DNA from: a virus
Reading direction: 5' to 3' (one strand)
Virus record (IMG/VR): IMGVR_UViG_3300048835_000830
Location: 62,001 to 126,000 of that record
Length of the DNA stretch: 64,000 nt
The position numbers and the translations under genes are program-made. Below the pieces are notes generated by a model. The model was not told the DNA's origin. It was given only the letters and a program-made list of their open reading frames with translations, and did no database searches. Positions 30,412 to 55,435 of this stretch are shown piece by piece. The stretch's first letter is position 1. Every line of letters starts with the position of its first letter.

Positions 30412-31602
30412 TCAGCACTTTCTCATCCGGAATTCCGTGGAAGACTGGCGCTTAAGAACGGCACTCAGTTCCGCCAGGAGCCTCGGATTCTCCGCTTGCC
30501 AAAGCTTTCTCAGAACCGGTGCGCTGAAGACCATAAAATGCCTGACATCGACCTTGTGCTTCTCGAAAATCTCAAAGACCTCCCGTCTCTGGTGCTTGTT
30601 GAGATGGTCGACGTCTATCTCGTCCGCTTTCACTTCAGGCCCAAAGACAACCCCCGGTATGGCGACAGGCGACTCGGAAGCCTCAACGTGCGCCCGCAGC
30701 TCTTTTTTCATCTCTTTCGAGAGGTTTTCGAGTACGTAAAGGGCGCCGAGGATACCCACAGCCTTATCCGTATTGCCGAGGATCTTAATCACACCTTTCT
30801 TGGGCTTTAACCGCCCCTCGCTATCATACTCAACGTAAGGTGCAAGTGCCGGACACTCCGCCATATAAGGGCAGTATTGACAGTGCTTATTCGGGGTCGC
30901 GGTCCTGTCTGTGCGCGACTCGTTGACCTCGATTCTTGTCAGGATCTCGTCCTCGATCTCGGTAAGCTCCTCGCGTCGCCAGACGTAGGGTTTTGAGTAT
31001 TTTCCGTAGCGTGCAAAGTGAAGAACGGTCTGTACTTCGTCCACAAACAGGTCGGTTTTAAAAACAAGCCAGGCATAGAAGCCAAGCTGGAAAGTGTCGG
31101 CGTCTTCCATGTTGGGCTGGGTCTTATGATCGTAGACAATCGCCTTTGTGGGGTCGCCGTCGGCTGTCATCATGATATCGATGCGGCCCCGCGCGAACGC
31201 TTCAGGGTCATCGTAGTCGCACTTTTGAAAGCTGCCCCCCACCATTTTAACGGCAAGCGCCTGTTCGACAACAGCATCGGAATGGAGCGGGTTCGGCGGG
31301 TTAAAAAGGTAGGCTCGCGCCATCTTGAAAATCTCGCGCGTCTCCTGCACTGCGGCCGGGTGAGCCGTGATCGATTTCGCAACGAGAGATCGGATCTCCT
31401 CGTCTTTGAATGTTTTCTTTTCCTTCAGCATCTCTTCAGTCAGATGACCGAGGACCTCGTGAACAGCAGAGCCGCGGGCCTGCGGGAGAGATTCGACTTC
31501 ACGCACCGAAGGGTCTTTGTCGATATACTGGCGACCGAAAGCATAGCGGCATACAGCCCGGTCAAGGCGCGATGGGCTGTAGGGCCCGAAGTTGAGCTTC
31601 AT
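30412..31602 (-). CDS. RecB/Cas4-like PD-(D/E)XK exonuclease with four-cysteine cluster
   Basis: 396 residues. Motifs in order: ARGSAVHEVLGHL (motif I His), RGRIDIMM (Asp), AIVYDHKTQ (DxK), and a C-terminal CQYCPYMAEC that, with Cys18 near the N-terminus, can form the 4Fe-4S site of AddB/Cas4-type nucleases. Such phage enzymes act as 5'-3' exonucleases in recombination. A GGTATAAGG motif lies 39-47 bases upstream. There is no Cas1 or Cas2 nearby, so the Cas4 resemblance does not by itself indicate CRISPR adaptation. Confidence 0.8.
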   Translation of the reverse strand: MKLNFGPYSPSRLDRAVCRYAFGRQYIDKDPSVREVESLPQARGSAVHEVLGHLTEEMLKEKKTFKDEEIRSLVAKSITAHPAAVQETREIFKMARAYLFNPPNPLHSDAVVEQALAVKMVGGSFQKCDYDDPEAFARGRIDIMMTADGDPTKAIVYDHKTQPNMEDADTFQLGFYAWLVFKTDLFVDEVQTVLHFARYGKYSKPYVWRREELTEIEDEILTRIEVNESRTDRTATPNKHCQYCPYMAECPALAPYVEYDSEGRLKPKKGVIKILGNTDKAVGILGALYVLENLSKEMKKELRAHVEASESPVAIPGVVFGPEVKADEIDVDHLNKHQRREVFEIFEKHKVDVRHFMVFSAPVLRKLWQAENPRLLAELSAVLKRQSSTEFRMRKC

Positions 31603-32682: not shown

Positions 32683-32944
32683 CGCTGGCGGCCTCCAGAA
32701 TGGGTATTGCGTCCTTGAGTACGGATATAAAAATGCGCTTTCTATCGATATCAAGCACACGATCCATGTTCTCCAAAAGCGCGTCCACGGGGTTTTCGCC
32801 ATGGACCGCAGAAGGAGTCGTATAAAGTGTCAGCAGATCCCTCACAATAGCGTTCCTGAACTCTTCGCGCAACTGCTGTTCCCTGATCTCCCGCATCCGC
32901 TCTTTTTCTTCAGCGTTTAGAGCACTGCCAAGGCATGATGACAT
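32660..32944 (-). CDS. Hypothetical helical protein
   Basis: 94 residues; AGGAGACC lies upstream of ATG 32944. All-helical and charged (AEEKERMREIREQQLREEFR). Overlaps the end of the clamp gene and the start of the dUTPase gene, so it is coupled to DNA-metabolism genes. No motif. Confidence 0.6.
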   Translation of the reverse strand: MSSCLGSALNAEEKERMREIREQQLREEFRNAIVRDLLTLYTTPSAVHGENPVDALLENMDRVLDIDRKRIFISVLKDAIPILEAASDAQSGNS

Positions 32945-33989
32945 TTACATGGTCTCCTGCTTCACTCGTGATTGCGAGGGGGGTTTCTGGCCCCCGAAGT
33001 TCAAAGACAACCTTATCGCCCTCGATCGACTCAACGGCATCGAGAAGAAAGTTGGGGTTGATGACAAGGCTCATGGGGGGCGCCCGATCGCCGGCAAGAA
33101 AGTCCTCGGCGAGCTGCCCGTCCTCCTCGGTCTCAAGCCTAAGCCCACCCTCTCCAAAGTGAAGGCTTGTCTGCGGGCCGAGCTCGCTCGCAATGATGAG
33201 CGCCCGCTCCAGCGCCTGGCAGAGCTCCGCCTTCCCGTAGGTAACCTTGACGGCCTGGCCTTTGGGAAAAGCCGACTCCACCCCCGGGATCGGCCACGCG
33301 GCGAGTTTTGTGACAGCCGTGATGCCGCCACCGGCCATGACGATCTCGCCCTGGCGCAGCATAATGCCGCCCTCCTGGTAGCCCTTAAAAAGCTTCTGGA
33401 GCCTCGTGACGGTCTCCATGGTCATCGCTATGGTCTTTGCCGGTTTGATCCATTCGTCCCGCACTTTAGCGAGCCTCATACCGTCCGTCCCAACGATGGA
33501 CTCCGGGGTGATGATGATCCCATGTGCAAACGTCCTATGGTTTGACGGATCGACGCAGTGCGAGACAAGGCCGATCGAATGGAAAAGAAAGCCGAGGTTG
33601 ATAGGGGTGTAGTCGAATTCCGAATGGGCGGTAGGGGGGAAGGCATCCTCCACCAGGACCTTTATGCGGAACTTCACGGGGCCGCAGTAGATCGTGCAAC
33701 CCGTACCGTCGAAATCGAGCGTGACAAGGTCCGCTTCCGGAAGGGTCGATGAAAGGTCGCGGAGCTTTTCCATGGGAAGGCCGCAGACGAGGCCCCCCTC
33801 CATACGCACCTCTGTGATATTCAGCTCCGCCTGCATCACGCGGTTAAAGGTCGAGAGCCTGAGGCCTGAGGGGCTGGCCTCCAGCCTGATATGAGCAAAG
33901 GCGTCCACCTTGACCTTCCCGCCTGCATTCAAAACCGATAGCCGTTCAATGGCGGCCTTGAAGATTGGCCGCGGCAGTTCAACCCGCAT
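32910..33989 (-). CDS. dnaN: Sliding clamp (DNA polymerase III beta-subunit-like)
   Basis: 359 residues from ATG 33989 (GGGG upstream; an ATG at 34001 lacks a ribosome site). Full-length three-domain beta clamp by size and pattern: VELPRPIFKAAIERL at the start of domain 1, a central VSHCVDPSNHRTFAHGIIIT followed by GTDGMRLAKV, the hallmark of domain 2, and a C-terminal ESIEGDKVVFELRGP leading to VIMPWQ. It encircles DNA and tethers the polymerase. Usual phage clamps are shorter, so this is of bacterial type. Confidence 0.82.
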   Translation of the reverse strand: MRVELPRPIFKAAIERLSVLNAGGKVKVDAFAHIRLEASPSGLRLSTFNRVMQAELNITEVRMEGGLVCGLPMEKLRDLSSTLPEADLVTLDFDGTGCTIYCGPVKFRIKVLVEDAFPPTAHSEFDYTPINLGFLFHSIGLVSHCVDPSNHRTFAHGIIITPESIVGTDGMRLAKVRDEWIKPAKTIAMTMETVTRLQKLFKGYQEGGIMLRQGEIVMAGGGITAVTKLAAWPIPGVESAFPKGQAVKVTYGKAELCQALERALIIASELGPQTSLHFGEGGLRLETEEDGQLAEDFLAGDRAPPMSLVINPNFLLDAVESIEGDKVVFELRGPETPLAITSEAGDHVNVIMPWQCSKR

Positions 33990-34031
33990 AAATCGCCCCA
34001 CATGGTATTTAGATGATTTTTCCTACATTGG

Positions 34032-37481: not shown

Positions 37482-37490
37482 TGGTAGAAT
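37482..37490 (+). promoter_or_regulatory. Extended -10 promoter for the metalloprotease gene
   Basis: TGGTAGAAT: TGn plus TAGAAT (-10), 32 bases before ATG 37523 in the divergent gap. It is one of few plus-strand promoters in the right part of the window, so the gene is probably expressed by host RNA polymerase independently of its neighbours. Confidence 0.45.
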
Positions 37491-37522
37491 AGCGCCGACC
37501 CTCAAACAAAGGAGAGGCAGCT

Positions 37523-38278
37523 ATGCAAAGGATGGTTTTCCTTCTTTTATGCTTATTCCAATTTTTCGCTTGTGGTGGCAGGGATGACGAGACGTCGGCC
37601 TTGAGCTACGCGACGTTCACGCCCGGCCGCGAGACCATGAGAGTGTGGTCAGCCTTCACAACAATAGAAGAAAGAGCCTGCATGCTGCCCGTTCAACTCT
37701 ACACCTTCAGCGGAGTTCAGGTTCCGGCGAGCCAAAGCGCTTTCGTGCGAAGCTCGATTGAAAAAGCTGTGGCCGCGTGGACCAGCGCTCTCTTGAATAA
37801 CCCTTTCTGGGACTGCGGTATAGCCCGCGTTGCGTGGGGTGAGGCGGGAGCTGGTACGGTGCAGGTCTACCTCGACCCAACAATCAGTCGGGGCTATGCC
37901 CTCGTCGGGCAAAATCAGATTTACCTCGCCCACGCAACGAGCGTCCCCGAAGACCCTTACGCAGAGCGCGTCATTCTTCACGAATTCGGGCATATGTTCG
38001 GGCTGGCCGATACGTATACGGAAGGCGGCTACCAGCAGCCCATAGGGCAGCCGGCAGGTATCATGAACCGCCTCTTCGATGTACCCGGGTTGACAGCTGA
38101 CGACTTCGCTGGTGCCTACGCGCTTTACGAATACATCAACGGGCGGGGAAGCTTTTGCGATCGCGGCTACATTGTGGGAGGGGCCTACGAAAACCCGAAC
38201 CGCATCGCTTTTTGCGTTCCGGCTTTCGGTCCTAATCCCCCTCCTCCGTCCCGGAAAGAGCCTGCAGTCTCGCTCTGA
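37523..38278 (+). CDS. Secreted lipoprotein zinc metalloprotease (metzincin type)
   Basis: 251 residues; GGAGAGGCAGCT precedes ATG 37523. Signal peptide MQRMVFLLLCLFQFFAC with a lipobox-like end (FFAC, then GG). Catalytic motif HEFGHMFGLADTY near residue 154 gives HExxHxxGxxD, and GIMNRL about 25 residues later is the Met-turn, so this is a matrixin-like metzincin. It would be tethered to a membrane and digest proteins outside the cytoplasm. Oriented against its neighbours with its own promoter, like a lysogenic-conversion (moron) gene. It overlaps the convergent 38232 gene by 47 bases. Confidence 0.8.
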   Translation: MQRMVFLLLCLFQFFACGGRDDETSALSYATFTPGRETMRVWSAFTTIEERACMLPVQLYTFSGVQVPASQSAFVRSSIEKAVAAWTSALLNNPFWDCGIARVAWGEAGAGTVQVYLDPTISRGYALVGQNQIYLAHATSVPEDPYAERVILHEFGHMFGLADTYTEGGYQQPIGQPAGIMNRLFDVPGLTADDFAGAYALYEYINGRGSFCDRGYIVGGAYENPNRIAFCVPAFGPNPPPPSRKEPAVSL

Positions 38279-38501
38279 ACTCATCCTCGTTCGGTGGCGG
38301 CCGGCGGTAAATCGTCCGGTCGATCGCCGCGATTTCCATGTACTTGGGTGCCACGTCGCCTCTTCCGGAGGTGTCGTAGCTCCAACCAAAGTCGGCCTGC
38401 ATTCCAAACTCCCCTCGCCATGAATGGAAAGCCGCATTAAATTGCGCGACGATCGCCTGAAGCCTTGTCACGGCGGCCTGTTCCTGCTCTGTGATGTTCA
38501 T
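38232..38501 (-). CDS. Hypothetical protein
   Basis: 89 residues; CGGAGAACCG precedes ATG 38501, which overlaps the upstream stop (ATGA). Helical N-terminus (EQAAVTRLQAIVAQFNAAFH), polar remainder. Its 3' end overlaps the convergent metalloprotease gene by 47 bases. No family recognised. Confidence 0.55.
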   Translation of the reverse strand: MNITEQEQAAVTRLQAIVAQFNAAFHSWRGEFGMQADFGWSYDTSGRGDVAPKYMEIAAIDRTIYRRPPPNEDEFRARLQALSGTEEGD

Positions 38502-38953
38502 CGGTTCTCCGTAAGACAGTAGTTTCCGTCAATGTACTTCCGCACGAAGGCTCGCCCCTGCGGTGTGAAAAAAAAGAGTCGTCGTGAGCCGAGGTTTTTG
38601 CCTGTGGTCTTATCGACGATAGGAATCAGGGCCTCTTTTAAAAGACCCTTGCTGATCATCTCCCTGTAGCAGCCCTTCGAGCAGATCATATATCGCTTTA
38701 TGTCCTGCGCGGTGAGAGGGACCTCGCGCTCAGGGTCGTGCTTTTTTGTGGCCTCGACGAGCGCCCAGATGCGGGAGATGGGCTCGATGTAGCACTTGAG
38801 GTCGAAGGGTGGCGCCAGCTCCACCGTTTTAAGAGGCTCGGGAATGTATCCGTCGTGGACTTTTTTACAGAGCACCTCGCCGTCAAGCGTGTACTTGATG
38901 ACAAGGCGCGGCTTGTCGCCCTCTTTCGTTCCAACAATGGGAAGTTCCTGCAT
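38498..38953 (-). CDS. Hypothetical protein, possible winged-helix
   Basis: 151 residues. TAQDIKRYMICSKGCYREMI and the following GSRRLFFFTPQGRAFVRKYI look like helix-turn-helix and wing segments. Overlaps the stop of the DnaJ-like gene (TGATG). A phage regulator is possible. Confidence 0.5.
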   Translation of the reverse strand: MQELPIVGTKEGDKPRLVIKYTLDGEVLCKKVHDGYIPEPLKTVELAPPFDLKCYIEPISRIWALVEATKKHDPEREVPLTAQDIKRYMICSKGCYREMISKGLLKEALIPIVDKTTGKNLGSRRLFFFTPQGRAFVRKYIDGNYCLTENR

Positions 38954-39843
38954 CAGCGCCCTCTCTGTTTTCCGTGGAGTTCCTCAAAGAGCCTAAGCCA
39001 TTCATCGCTCTCCTGGTCGAGGTCGGTGTCCTCCTTCCAGTCGATATCAAGCTTTTCCCAGGCCTTGGCCTTTTTGAGCTCATCACGCGTCGGAAAGCTT
39101 ATGTTGACCGTAAGAAGGTGGTCACCTCTCTGCTTTATCCCAAAGGCACTGTCGCGGACCGGCCCACAGCCCTTTATGCGAAGAACGTCGCCTGGTTTGG
39201 TCCCGGCCTTCACCCGAACGGGCCGCAGCCCATACATCGTTAGAATATCGATCTGCCCGCCCTTGAGACAGACGTCAAGCGGCAGGTTTTCCGCCGAATG
39301 AACATTGCCGTCACGGATGCTAAAACGGGCGTGCGGGAGGACCTGGATGATGACCATGGCGTTACCCCTCTCCTCGCCGCAGCGATGCCCACGACCCGAA
39401 AGGAGCTGCTGGTAGCCGTCGCTTGTGTTGGGGTTGAGGTCGATCGTCAGTCGATCAAGCTCTACCTGCCCCCCATCCTCTGCAGCAATGGGCTGGAGGT
39501 TCTCGTCGAGCTGGCAGATGGAGTAGGAGAGGTGGATGCGCCTGCCGAAGAACGCATCCTCGAAACTGACGGGTATCATCATGCGGATGTCCAGCGCGCC
39601 CCGCGCGTTCATGTTGCCGCGTCGTACAGCCTGCTCCCTCTCCTTTTGCCGGTACTCGGCATCGGTCAGCATCTTGTAGGCATGCGTCACTTTCCGAAAA
39701 GCGTCGGCGCTGCCGCCGGGCTTGTCAGGATGATGCTTTTGACAAAGATCCTTCCAGCGCCTTTTGACTTCGCTATAGGTCGGGTTGGTATTGGGCGGAA
39801 ACCCAAGGGCTGTCATTGCTTCCGTTAGATCGTGCATAGCCAT
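38953..39843 (-). CDS. DnaJ/CbpA-like co-chaperone
   Basis: 296 residues. The J-domain is at residues 1-75 with the essential HPD (KHHPDKPGGSADAFRKVTHA). The C-terminal part matches the DnaJ substrate-binding domain: PVSFEDAFFGRRIHLSY, RVKAGTKPGDVLRIKGCGPV and LLTVNISFPT. The Gly/Phe and zinc-finger regions are missing, as in CbpA. It would stimulate host DnaK during replication-complex remodelling or virion assembly. ATG 39837 is an equally possible start. Confidence 0.85.
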   Translation of the reverse strand: MAMHDLTEAMTALGFPPNTNPTYSEVKRRWKDLCQKHHPDKPGGSADAFRKVTHAYKMLTDAEYRQKEREQAVRRGNMNARGALDIRMMIPVSFEDAFFGRRIHLSYSICQLDENLQPIAAEDGGQVELDRLTIDLNPNTSDGYQQLLSGRGHRCGEERGNAMVIIQVLPHARFSIRDGNVHSAENLPLDVCLKGGQIDILTMYGLRPVRVKAGTKPGDVLRIKGCGPVRDSAFGIKQRGDHLLTVNISFPTRDELKKAKAWEKLDIDWKEDTDLDQESDEWLRLFEELHGKQRGR

Positions 39844-40533: not shown

Positions 40534-41658
40534 TCAGAGAATGGAGTCGCCGGCGGCTTTTACGGCCGGTTTAATCTTTTCCTGCTTTTCGTTCGCCTTT
40601 GCTGTGAGATCTGTGACGATACGGTTGATCTCAGAAAGCACGGCGGCCTTGGGGTCTGCCTCACCCTTTTTCTTGTCGATAGCCTTGAGACGCACTTCGG
40701 TGCTGAACTTTTTCCCGGAGATTTGCTCATAGGCTGCAAACGCCTGCTGAACCTCGGGATCGTTCAGGATGTCCTGCGCGTCCTGCTTTCTTGCGGCCCC
40801 GGTATCGATGTCCACGACATCATCCGAAGAGCCTTCCGGAAGAACCGGGAAGTGGTCCTCGAAGGGCCTTCTGTTTATCTCATCAGCCGTGGCTGGCAGA
40901 AGGAAAGAGGCCGTCTGGAACTGCTCGATCTTTCTTCGGATCTCTTCGCCGTGAAGCTCATAAAGATTCTCATTTGGACGGATCTTCATGATGTGGTGGA
41001 TCTTTGTCATGTCCACCCCGTTCTCCTGGTGCGTCGTCACCGTCTCGGATCGGTAAATCTTGAAGGGGAAGAACTTGATGCTTCCGCGTGTGCTCATGAT
41101 ATGGTGGATCTGGCTATCGAAGTTGTTGATCGAATGCCAGCTCGATGTGTCGATCTCATAGGCCCCGTAGATGGATACGCGCGGCAGGATTACGATGGCC
41201 TTCATTGTTTGTCGGCATTTTTTAGCGATATAGTCAGGGCACTCCTGACCCATGCAGGGGCGGATCGGGACCACTTTCGTAACAGGATCGCGCGCCGCAA
41301 AGTGCTGCGCTGTCCCGGGACTTGTGACAGGCACTTCGTCGATCACGTCTGTTCTAGGGCCGTTACCCATGCAATTGAGTTTTCCACCTATAATGCGGCC
41401 CGTCTGGTCTTTGCGGCCCGCGCCGTAGGACTTGAACCACGTCGGCAGGACAATCTCAAGGTCGTCCCCCGGGAAAAAGGCGTCGAGTTCCTTCGGGTCT
41501 TTGCCATAAACCTCTTCGACACCGGGGGCGTCGGTCAGGACAAAATACTCGACCTCAGCAGGATAGAGGCTTCCCTTGGAAGACTCCTTGCGCACGCCGA
41601 GGCGAATCTTTCCAAGGATAGGGAGACGGCGTCTTTGGGCAACCATTTGAATCGGCAT
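40534..41658 (-). CDS. Recombination-directionality-factor-like (Gp3-like) protein
   Basis: 374 residues; AAGGAGCTGATCAGT precedes ATG 41658. The opening LPILGKIRLGVRKESSKG, then PAEVEYFVLTD, the zinc-type CMGQECPDYIAKKC near residue 137 and ILPRVSIYGAYEIDTSSWHS follow the order of the Gp3-like RDF family of phages. The founding member reverses serine-integrase reactions, but most relatives occur in lytic phages without an integrase, so a general DNA-metabolism role is likely. No integrase is seen in the window. Confidence 0.65.
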   Translation of the reverse strand: MPIQMVAQRRRLPILGKIRLGVRKESSKGSLYPAEVEYFVLTDAPGVEEVYGKDPKELDAFFPGDDLEIVLPTWFKSYGAGRKDQTGRIIGGKLNCMGNGPRTDVIDEVPVTSPGTAQHFAARDPVTKVVPIRPCMGQECPDYIAKKCRQTMKAIVILPRVSIYGAYEIDTSSWHSINNFDSQIHHIMSTRGSIKFFPFKIYRSETVTTHQENGVDMTKIHHIMKIRPNENLYELHGEEIRRKIEQFQTASFLLPATADEINRRPFEDHFPVLPEGSSDDVVDIDTGAARKQDAQDILNDPEVQQAFAAYEQISGKKFSTEVRLKAIDKKKGEADPKAAVLSEINRIVTDLTAKANEKQEKIKPAVKAAGDSIL

Positions 41659-45964: not shown

Positions 45965-46561
45965 TCAAAGAAGCGCCCGCAGCTGCTCGCTCATTTCCAT
46001 CAGAAGCTCACCCCCATCGACAGCTTCATCCGTCAAAAGACCAGGAAATTTTTTACAAAGGTCGATGACAACAGCTTTCGCTTTCTCAGGGTCGATATCC
46101 TCGACCGTCGTTGCCTCTTTGCCGATGCTCAGGCGAATGGTGATGTGGTCGAGGGGGACAACCGGGCGAAGGGTTTCCTCGATCACGAGCCGCTCGCCAT
46201 AGATGTCGTCAGGCGTTCCATCCGTATGCACGGCCGCCTGGGTTGTGCTTTTCACGAGCCTTCCCGTTATGAGGTCCGCCCATGCGGCCACCGATTTTTG
46301 TGGGATGTTTGGCGGCAGCGGGAACGCCGCCAGGTTTTTTGCAAGCTCATAGACAACGCCGGCGGCCTTCGTATAGAGCTTCATGTACTCACGCGGTCTC
46401 CACGTGCCGCCGCCCACGATAGCCGTCATCGTAAGGCTGGGATCGCGGCCTTTAAGGAGCATGGCGATCGCATGAATAACGGCAGCCTCCTCGTCAGTGT
46501 AGCTGTGCCCGCCGAGATCATTATTCTTCCAATGGTTTGGTGTGTTTCCAGAGTCCGTCAT
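45965..46561 (-). CDS. Hypothetical protein
   Basis: 198 residues from ATG 46561 (GGAGGATACC upstream), overlapping the previous gene by 41 bases. Contains EEAAVIHAIAMLLKGRDPSL and ITIRLSIGKEATTVEDIDPE. No domain recognised. Confidence 0.6.
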   Translation of the reverse strand: MTDSGNTPNHWKNNDLGGHSYTDEEAAVIHAIAMLLKGRDPSLTMTAIVGGGTWRPREYMKLYTKAAGVVYELAKNLAAFPLPPNIPQKSVAAWADLITGRLVKSTTQAAVHTDGTPDDIYGERLVIEETLRPVVPLDHITIRLSIGKEATTVEDIDPEKAKAVVIDLCKKFPGLLTDEAVDGGELLMEMSEQLRALL

Positions 46562-47294
46562 CTTCAGGTATCCTCCGTAAAAGCTGTTGGGGAAGGTTAT
46601 CATCACTCGGATCGTCTTTCATTTCCAGGGCCATCATCGCGGATACTGCGCCTTCGGCTCCCGGCGCGACGATAATCCCCGAAGCTTCAGAAAGCCTCAT
46701 GTCGCACATCCACGCGGGCGTCGCCACCATATACTTCCTGCAGACAAGAGGTCTAGCCTCGTAAGCTCGGCAGTTGCCGTCCTCCCCTAAAATCGGGCAT
46801 GCGCGTTTTTCGTAAGGCATCTTCACATGAGCTAGATTATCCCTGCCATGCTCGAACTGGTGAAGAACAAGACTTCGATCGAGCTTCACATCTTTTTCAC
46901 GAAGGTGCCTTACGAGCACATCAGCCTCACTGTCAGTCAGTGTCACCTGTATGTGACAGCAGGCCGAACAGCCTGATTTGCAAGTAGGCGGCGGATCGCC
47001 ATTTTGTTTCCTTTTGGAAAGGCCCTGTGCGATCTTTTTATTTACTTCAGTTAAAGCTCTCTCGCCGCGCTCCACTCCTTTCGGGTAACACTCAAGCGAC
47101 TCGAACGTCGTCCGAAAGGAGGCTCTAAACGCTTTCATACCCAGGACTGCCAAGGCTGGGTTGAACTCCTCGGTCTGCGCGATGAAATCGACGAAAGTGC
47201 TCGTGCCCGGGATGCCTATGGGCTCGCCTTTCATGGCTTTGTCCCTGAGGGTTTTCGGCAGGTCGTCTATGCCGATGCCCAAATCCTGTTCCAT
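46521..47294 (-). CDS. YkgJ-type CxxCxxCC zinc/iron-chelating protein
   Basis: 257 residues. CKSGCSACCHIQVTLTD near residue 105, followed by RACPILGEDGNCRAYEARPL and CRKY, is the YkgJ (CxxCxxCC) family signature, a metal-binding domain of uncertain function in bacteria. The N-terminal 100 residues and the C-terminal tail are unrecognised. Confidence 0.75.
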   Translation of the reverse strand: MEQDLGIGIDDLPKTLRDKAMKGEPIGIPGTSTFVDFIAQTEEFNPALAVLGMKAFRASFRTTFESLECYPKGVERGERALTEVNKKIAQGLSKRKQNGDPPPTCKSGCSACCHIQVTLTDSEADVLVRHLREKDVKLDRSLVLHQFEHGRDNLAHVKMPYEKRACPILGEDGNCRAYEARPLVCRKYMVATPAWMCDMRLSEASGIIVAPGAEGAVSAMMALEMKDDPSDDNLPQQLLRRIPEDDGLWKHTKPLEE

Positions 47295-53860: not shown

Positions 53861-55435
53861 TTACTTGCGAACGCAAAAGTAGTTGGCCGTGTCGCTGGCC
53901 GTTTTTAGAGCGCCGACGCTAGCCCCCATGATAGCGATGTAATAGCTCATCGAGTATGTGCTCGACGTCCACGAGCCATACCATGCGACAACGCTGTTTT
54001 CGGCGGCACCGTGGGTTGAGAGCGTGATAGCCTCATCGGAGGAAGGAAGACGCCAATCATCGAAACCGCCGTAGACGAGGTTCAGACAACCGTTGACGGC
54101 TGTGTTGCGGTTACCGCTACCCATTTGCTTGGACACGTACAGTCCCGAGATGCGGTCCTTCCACATGCAGTTGGAGGGGTCCCCGGCGCAGGTCGATGCT
54201 GTCGAAGACGAGAGCGAGGTCAGGTCCTGCCAGATTTCATTTTGAGCACAGCTTTCGCCAACGGGAACGGTCCCGCTGTCGTGAGTCCGGCAGTGAGCCT
54301 TGAGTTTACCCGAGACACCATTGACAGTCTTGCCGAAGCGAAGATCCCACGGGTCGATCGTGATTTCACTTGCGGGTTCAAGAGTACCCGAGACATTGAA
54401 GAGGGTCACATCGGATTTAATGTTTTCGGCTGTCAAGGCCGAGTTACCTGTCTGGGTATGGCGGGCGCCGGTTGAATCAAAGTATTCAAATTGGGCGTCC
54501 GATTTGATCTTCAGGTTGAACGTGGCCGCATCGAGGTCGGCAGTTGCGGTGGCCGAGGCCAGAGGGGCCGAAGCCGAAGGGTAGGTACCGGTCACACCGG
54601 CGACGGCCACACCATTTTTGAGGTTTGCAGCCACAAGGTTTGTAAGGTCAGCGGCCTTGTAGGTCTCGCCCGTAACGCAACCCGTTTGACCGTTGCTAGT
54701 ACAGTCCGAGTGCGACTCAACGACGAGCGAACCGGAAACGCCAGCAATCGTCACACCCGACTTTACGTTGGCAGCCGAGAGGTTTGCAATATCAGCGGCT
54801 TTGTAGGTGGATGTGGCGACGCAGCCCGACTGACCGTTTGCGCTGCAGTCGACATGCGACTCCACGGCAAGCGATCCGGTGATGCCAGCGATCGTCACAC
54901 CCGACTTTACGTTGGCAGCTGAAAGGTTACTGAGGTTGGCAGCTTTGAAGCTGGCGTTCGTTACGCAGCCTTCCTCGCCGTTGGCCGAGCAGGAGCTGTA
55001 GGAAGCGCCAGCATAGTTTCCTGTGACACCGGCAATCGTCACACCCGATTTTACGTTTCCGGCTGTGAGGTTGCTAAGGTCAGGGGCGGCGGGGATGACA
55101 AGCGTACCCGTGGCGATCGTGCCGTCGCAGAGCATCAGCTGAACACCGGTTTTGACTTCGGCCAGGTTGGGGTCAACGCAGTCCGGGTCTGTGAGCTTCA
55201 AAGCCTTGGCAGGAGCAGTCTCCTCGACTGCGGGGGTCGCCGTCTTTTGAGCTTCGATAGGGGCTTCGACTTTGCTTTCAGCCTTCGCCTCTACTTTGGC
55301 TTCATCAGTTGGTTTTGCGACCGGTGCTGGAACGCTGGTGGGAAGGGTTACGGGCGCCACACCGGAGCCGGAATCGGCACCGCAGGCGGCAAGGGTACTG
55401 TAGAGAACGAGCGAATACAAAAGTTGCGATTTCAT
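53861..55435 (-). CDS. Lipoprotein with tandem NVKSGVTIAGVTG repeats and Lcl/DUF1566 domain
   Basis: 524 residues. Signal peptide with lipobox LAAC at 16-19, an acidic Pro/Ala/Glu linker to about residue 75, then four to five repeats of roughly 30-45 residues, each with NVKSGVTIAGVTG and CSANGQxGCVT followed by YKAADLxNL. The C-terminal 120 residues carry WRLPSSDE and paired cysteines of the Lcl/DUF1566 domain, seen in bacterial surface proteins. Probably a surface lipoprotein expressed on the host, or a receptor-binding or adhesin-like part. The DNA repeats are visible between 54590 and 55080. Confidence 0.7.
   Translation of the reverse strand: MKSQLLYSLVLYSTLAACGADSGSGVAPVTLPTSVPAPVAKPTDEAKVEAKAESKVEAPIEAQKTATPAVEETAPAKALKLTDPDCVDPNLAEVKTGVQLMLCDGTIATGTLVIPAAPDLSNLTAGNVKSGVTIAGVTGNYAGASYSSCSANGEEGCVTNASFKAANLSNLSAANVKSGVTIAGITGSLAVESHVDCSANGQSGCVATSTYKAADIANLSAANVKSGVTIAGVSGSLVVESHSDCTSNGQTGCVTGETYKAADLTNLVAANLKNGVAVAGVTGTYPSASAPLASATATADLDAATFNLKIKSDAQFEYFDSTGARHTQTGNSALTAENIKSDVTLFNVSGTLEPASEITIDPWDLRFGKTVNGVSGKLKAHCRTHDSGTVPVGESCAQNEIWQDLTSLSSSTASTCAGDPSNCMWKDRISGLYVSKQMGSGNRNTAVNGCLNLVYGGFDDWRLPSSDEAITLSTHGAAENSVVAWYGSWTSSTYSMSYYIAIMGASVGALKTASDTANYFCVRK

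Follow-up and report, generated by a model that had tools for sequence, protein, structure and literature searches.

What would a tailed phage gain from a lone gene for an apparently exported zinc protease, read against the direction of the DNA-metabolism and chaperone genes that surround it? The question is raised by an open reading frame in the window, the 64,000-nucleotide stretch analysed here, which spans positions 62001-126000 of an IMG/VR virus record of 166,638 bases. The ORF at 37523-38278 on the plus strand has exact boundaries, is a real gene, encodes a protein of 251 aa (P0001) and occurs as one copy in the whole record. Matches to tail-sheath and head-maturation-protease proteins confirm by sequence that the source is a tailed phage and bear out the description of the gene as phage-encoded. 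The original prediction had also named a signal peptide with a lipobox-like end, the motif HEFGHMFGLAD and a Met-turn, and the corresponding sequence features are present: a short hydrophobic stretch leads to FFAC-GG, Met181 of GIMN lies 18 residues past Asp163, and the protein ends with a two-cysteine tail. The gene and its predicted features are as follows.

37482..37490, plus strand: putative extended -10 promoter element TGgTAGAAT, without a recognisable -35 (from the sequence)
37510..37517, plus strand: predicted ribosome-binding site AGGAGAGG (from the sequence)
37523..38278, plus strand: gene of the metzincin-type exported protease P0001, 251 aa (homologues, sequence motif and model)
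37523..37573, plus strand: predicted signal peptide with a lipobox-like FFAC end and Cys17; this column is Cys in 6 of the 9 family members
37979..38011, plus strand: zinc-binding motif HEFGHMFGLAD with Asp163 as third ligand; HExxHxxGLAD in 9 of 9
38057..38068, plus strand: Met-turn GIMN with Met181; this Met and the following Asn182 are unchanged in all nine
38138..38224, plus strand: C-terminal extension in which Cys212 and Cys231 are invariant (NGRG-FC...GGAYEN...AFC-P), from the family alignment; low model confidence

Eight homologues of P0001, with 32-68% identity, are encoded in other IMG/VR phage records (loci L002 and L012-L018) and form, with the window copy, a family of nine. Successive scans of viral contigs returned one, then six, then eight records, and a repeat profile scan and two single-sequence scans of the same contigs found no record beyond the eight. 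The alignment of the nine proteins has 33 invariant columns, which include both His, the Glu, the Gly and the Asp, the Met-Asn of the Met-turn, Asp193-Asp194, Cys212 and Cys231. Only L017 and L018 form a close pair, which differs by a dN of 0.022 and a dS of 0.424 (dN/dS about 0.05) and is therefore under purifying selection; since the eight homologues keep the catalytic residues and this pair has such a low ratio, the combination of features in P0001 is more than chance. Searches of known phages and plasmids by tblastn gave sub-threshold matches only: with E values of up to 10 allowed, 5 and 8 records were matched, the lowest values being 0.07 and 0.1. Prophage relatives were sought in bacterial genomes by one scan of genome contigs, which returned three loci and no family member, an absence that is weak evidence because the scan patterns were derived from two sequences. 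Two of these loci are Melainabacteria proteins of more than 500 residues that carry the motif HEFGHMFGLDH in a different architecture, and the remaining one is a Chloroflexi protein that is not a family member.

By motif, profile and predicted fold, P0001 is a metzincin. This part of the original prediction is upheld by the agreement of the zinc motif, the Met-turn, the family profile and the AlphaFold model, yet the protein is not a matrixin proper. Pfam searches with the window protein yielded M64, M12, M7, M10 and M6 (metzincin and related zincin families), all below threshold, and the other family members matched the same kinds of model with weak E-values. The scores of P0001 fall short of the cut-offs of the matrixin model PF00413 (15.7 against a curated 24 bits), the snapalysin model PF02031 (16.5 against 25) and the snapalysin NCBIfam NF033628 (16.9 against 300). 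In PHROGs the window protein has no match at E 0.1 and the family none at E 0.01, and one of seven members matches one family at E 0.07. A profile of seven members matched the snapalysin chains 1c7k and 4hx3 at E 6e-5 and MMP-20 at 0.007. The AlphaFold model (pLDDT 78, pTM 0.76), the C-terminal part of which is of low confidence and uncertain fold, matched MMPs in Foldseek with a best E of 2e-4, and VIA-align placed it with karilysin and MMPs at Z 10.5 to 9.2 among the matches listed (karilysin: Z 10.5, rmsd 3.1, 139 residues aligned); no snapalysin chain was among the matches listed in the latter search, which carries no weight either way. Because profile and fold match and the cut-offs are missed, P0001 is best described as a metzincin whose third ligand is Asp and which is neither a matrixin nor a snapalysin by the curated definitions.

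Comparison with characterised enzymes leads to a similar picture. The overall catalytic fold is shared with the M10 matrixins (MMPs and bacterial karilysin), from which the family differs in that the third zinc ligand is by motif Asp rather than His in all nine members and in that the Cys-switch propeptide pattern is absent from all nine. The arrangement HExxHxxGxxD with an Asp ligand, which is a feature of M7 and is in part visible in the profile alignment, is common to the family and to snapalysin of Streptomyces; the M7 enzyme, however, is a catalytic core of about 130 residues with neither lipobox nor extension. MMP-like folds are also predicted for the virus-coded MMPs of insect viruses (granulovirus, ascovirus, entomopoxvirus) and for L0CNS5 of Synechococcus phage P60, but identity is 8-18% among the matches listed, and these proteins belong to eukaryotic viruses or, in the case of L0CNS5, to a phage as an uncharacterised product. 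The P0001 family is a rare and uncatalogued group of exported metzincins encoded by unrelated phages, and in the open-licence literature searched the only phage metzincin described is that of the Listeria Mtz/Tim pair.

Several features of the family point to export. The invariant Cys212 and Cys231, together with the covarying Cys53 and Cys98 (both present in the copies of the window, L012 and L013, both missing from the other six), suggest disulfides and hence an extracytoplasmic location of P0001. A strict lipobox pattern is passed by five of the nine members and failed by the window copy, which has Gln at -4. A cleavable signal is likely in members without the lipobox Cys: the L002 and L016 copies have a signal-peptidase-I-like start in its place, and the signal type of the L014 copy is ambiguous. 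A first, stricter home-made signal scan missed L012, L013, L015 and L016; its relaxed version, adjusted afterwards, flags nine of nine, a count that is not independent because the scan was tuned on those misses. Lipidation of the window copy on Cys17 is likely. Of the secreted lipoprotease originally predicted, export is thus retained and is conserved in the family; the lipid anchor is the weaker part, as the lipobox of P0001 itself is imperfect and the anchor rests on the family more than on the window copy. A second candidate phage lipoprotein is encoded elsewhere in the window, at 53861-55435 on the minus strand: this protein of 524 aa begins with a lipobox-like segment and has an Lcl_C domain match below threshold.

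Among the identifiable flanking genes, that of P0001 is the lone one on the plus strand, and its 3' end overlaps a convergent ORF at 38232-38501 by 47 bases. Its neighbours are:

30412-31602, minus strand: PD-(D/E)XK nuclease (recognisable domain)
32910-34001, minus strand: DnaN-like DNA polymerase III beta-clamp (Pfam E 7e-17)
38953-39843, minus strand: DnaJ with J and C-terminal domains (domain match)
40534-41658, minus strand: Gp3-like protein (domain match)

The claim that the gene has its own extended -10 promoter directed against the surrounding genes is backed by the sequence and by the same element at L002 and L012. The element lies 26-32 nt 5' of the start in the window, at L002 (26 nt) and at L012 (31 nt), with a chance of 1-2% per locus by background frequency, the pattern and the distance having been picked post hoc, after the window had been seen. 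It occurs in three of the four copies without same-strand upstream overlap (window, L002, L012 and L014), with no promoter of the extended -10 type found upstream of the L014 copy, and in four of the nine loci overall; the L018 match lies within the upstream coding gene and is missing from the near-twin L017. Lacking a -35, the window promoter was missed by a generic -35/-10 scan.

At L013, L015, L017 and L018 the gene is instead coupled to the preceding one, its start overlapping the preceding stop by 4 nt. Genes of the Gp157, ERF, SSB and VRR_NUC types precede the protease at L015, L017 and L018 (as identified by Pfam for L015 and a part of L018, and by homology for L017), and a YqaJ recombinase gene lies just downstream of it at L013; at least three of the four coupled copies lie in recombination operons. 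Replication or recombination neighbourhoods such as these, which are distinct from virion ones, are of the early or middle type in phages. The L016 copy follows tail-fibre genes and precedes an amidase endolysin, and the L014 copy is near CAP, amidase and transglycosylase genes.

Some other products of these regions deserve a record of their own. The CAP (cysteine-rich secretory) domain protein of L014 (6943-7557, minus strand), about 440 bases from the protease, is a lipoprotein. A secreted protein of 147/151 aa, encoded at L002:6835-7278 and L014:8756-9211 (both minus strand) and 55% identical between them, is the only non-protease ORF common to both records; it is next to and convergent with the protease in L014 and may be a partner, and a viral scan with it found its own record L014 alone. 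No pairing with the protease is claimed because the link rests on two records. An ORF at L002:2589-3188 (minus strand) has a long Ala/Trp/Asp repeat (AWAAAWAADAAWAA...) and may encode a repeat protein or be an artefact of the reading frame, and the window encodes a CxxCxxCC metal-chelating domain protein at 46521-47294 (minus strand).

The relationship between the phages that carry the protease was assessed by an all-against-all comparison of ORFs of at least 60 aa, which covered 166,000 of the 166,638 bases of the window's record in pieces. This record has one or two ORF pairs in common with each of the eight others, the protease always being one of them, although shared genes may be missed because most records are fragments. 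Apart from the protease, an SSB-like ORF is common to the window's record and three others; the L012 record shares with it a 401-aa protein, and the L016 record a fibre-like stretch. The closest relative of P0001, the L012 copy with 68% identity, therefore comes from an otherwise nearly unrelated record. Being nearly the sole gene common to the window's phage and the others, the P0001 gene is a mobile accessory gene, and its accessory nature is well supported.

Starting from what computation provides, namely the gene, the fold, the active-site residues, an export signal in most members, the isolation of the gene and its spread among phages, we propose that P0001 is an exported metzincin, encoded by a mobile accessory gene with non-late expression, that cuts host envelope proteins; lipidation, zinc binding, activity, timing, substrate and benefit are the inferred parts of this proposal. 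P0001 would be exported and held at the outer face of the inner membrane or at the outer membrane, in the window copy probably by a lipid on Cys17. Expression would be set apart from the late virion genes, here through its own extended -10 element, which a host polymerase of the sigma-70 type could read. The protein would fold in the oxidising periplasm and then cleave a single envelope protein of the infected cell, or a few of them, and the most likely benefit would be that surface proteins are removed or remodelled so that competing phages are excluded or the envelope is weakened. A phage-coded exported lipoprotein is already known in Ltp of the S. thermophilus phage TP-J34; superinfection-exclusion lipoproteins of this kind are, however, not described as proteases in the excerpts of that source (PMC3952083), and the similarity would be one of role. 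Lysogenic conversion, which the original prediction had offered as one outcome, finds no backing, as the record, which may be incomplete, has neither a phage integrase (PF00589) nor a serine recombinase (PF00239). In our judgement the proposal is about evenly poised, with receptor removal or envelope remodelling as the first choice and an aid to lysis as the second. Against it stand the imperfect lipobox of the window copy and an L014 copy without a promoter of the same type, and the contexts of L016 and L014 near wall-lytic genes suit a role in lysis equally well.

A weakening of the envelope that makes lysis by holin and endolysin faster, or possible under poor conditions, is the tentative second choice, and the closest precedent works in lysis, not in exclusion. 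According to the report on this system (PMC8235301), phage-derived Listeria Mtz cleaves the lipoprotein Tim, the two together sensitise cells to phage lysis and raise virion release about 5-fold, the prophage mtz-tim genes sit downstream of holin-lysin, and Mtz alone has no effect. Mtz resembles the present family as a phage-carried exported metzincin encoded by an accessory gene, with homology in the catalytic core (hhalign 95.6%, E 1e-8, 85 columns), and the closeness of the L016 and L014 copies to wall-lytic genes fits the same role. Mtz differs, however, in its third ligand (His rather than Asp) and in not being a lipoprotein; it has neither the C-terminal extension with its cysteines nor the longer pre-Met-turn loop, and it is paired with Tim, a partner not found beside the window gene: a home-made scan, which can miss weak signals, detected no other signal-bearing ORF within 5 kb. 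Since Mtz alone has no effect in Listeria and a Tim-like neighbour is not visible, a direct transfer of the Mtz mechanism is unwarranted; moreover, the four of nine copies that are coupled to upstream genes lie in operons other than lysis cassettes.

It is quite improbable that the protease acts beyond the infected cell, by digesting extracellular protein or, should the hosts be predators of the Bdellovibrio kind, proteins in the envelope of the prey, within which host and phage would be enclosed. The clue comes from the L013 record, in which five ORFs match Bdellovibrio phage phi1422; this phage is clearly the nearest to the primase of that record (E 2e-135, the next phage having 7e-84) and to its helicase (3e-101, the next having 2e-72). 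However, only this record points clearly to Bdellovibrio, a portal and a baseplate protein of other records (G007 and G002) being nearer to other phages, and none of the reading frames of phi1422 itself contains a HExxHxxGxx[HD] motif. Phage phi1422 is grouped with dwarf myoviruses that infect a variety of Proteobacteria (PMC3391216). No usable host emerged from the matches of the DnaJ, the tail sheath, the DNA polymerase, the Gp3-like protein or an endolysin, and the L002 terminase has weak, mixed matches. In the phage collection, the DnaJ of the window (38953-39843, minus strand) is matched only in Agrobacterium phage Atu_ph07 (two records).

A virion-borne protease that helps the particle to cross surface layers would suit a tailed phage, in which proteases could act at entry, but is highly improbable: the protein has a Sec-type signal or lipobox, for which a virion protein has no need, and the gene lies outside the virion clusters in most records. 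A catalytically idle paralogue that serves as a binding protein is close to negligible as an explanation, given the zinc ligands, catalytic Glu and Met-turn retained in nine of nine members and the strong purifying selection on the L017/L018 pair.

The proposal of an exported metzincin that cuts host envelope proteins can be extended to a bolder form, which we consider doubtful: a lipid-anchored metzincin would shave proteins from the host surface from early infection and serve as a mobile weapon of unrelated phages on one host group, possibly Bdellovibrio-like predators, in which it would also open the envelope of the prey; superinfection exclusion or exit by such proteolysis would be new. 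Phage-coded exported proteases are seldom studied, and the P0001 family turns up, under constraint, in phages that are unrelated to one another. If the enzyme is active, the re-editing of a host's envelope proteome by a phage could be tested on it, and studies of structure and specificity would gain a natural MMP-like enzyme of suitably small size.
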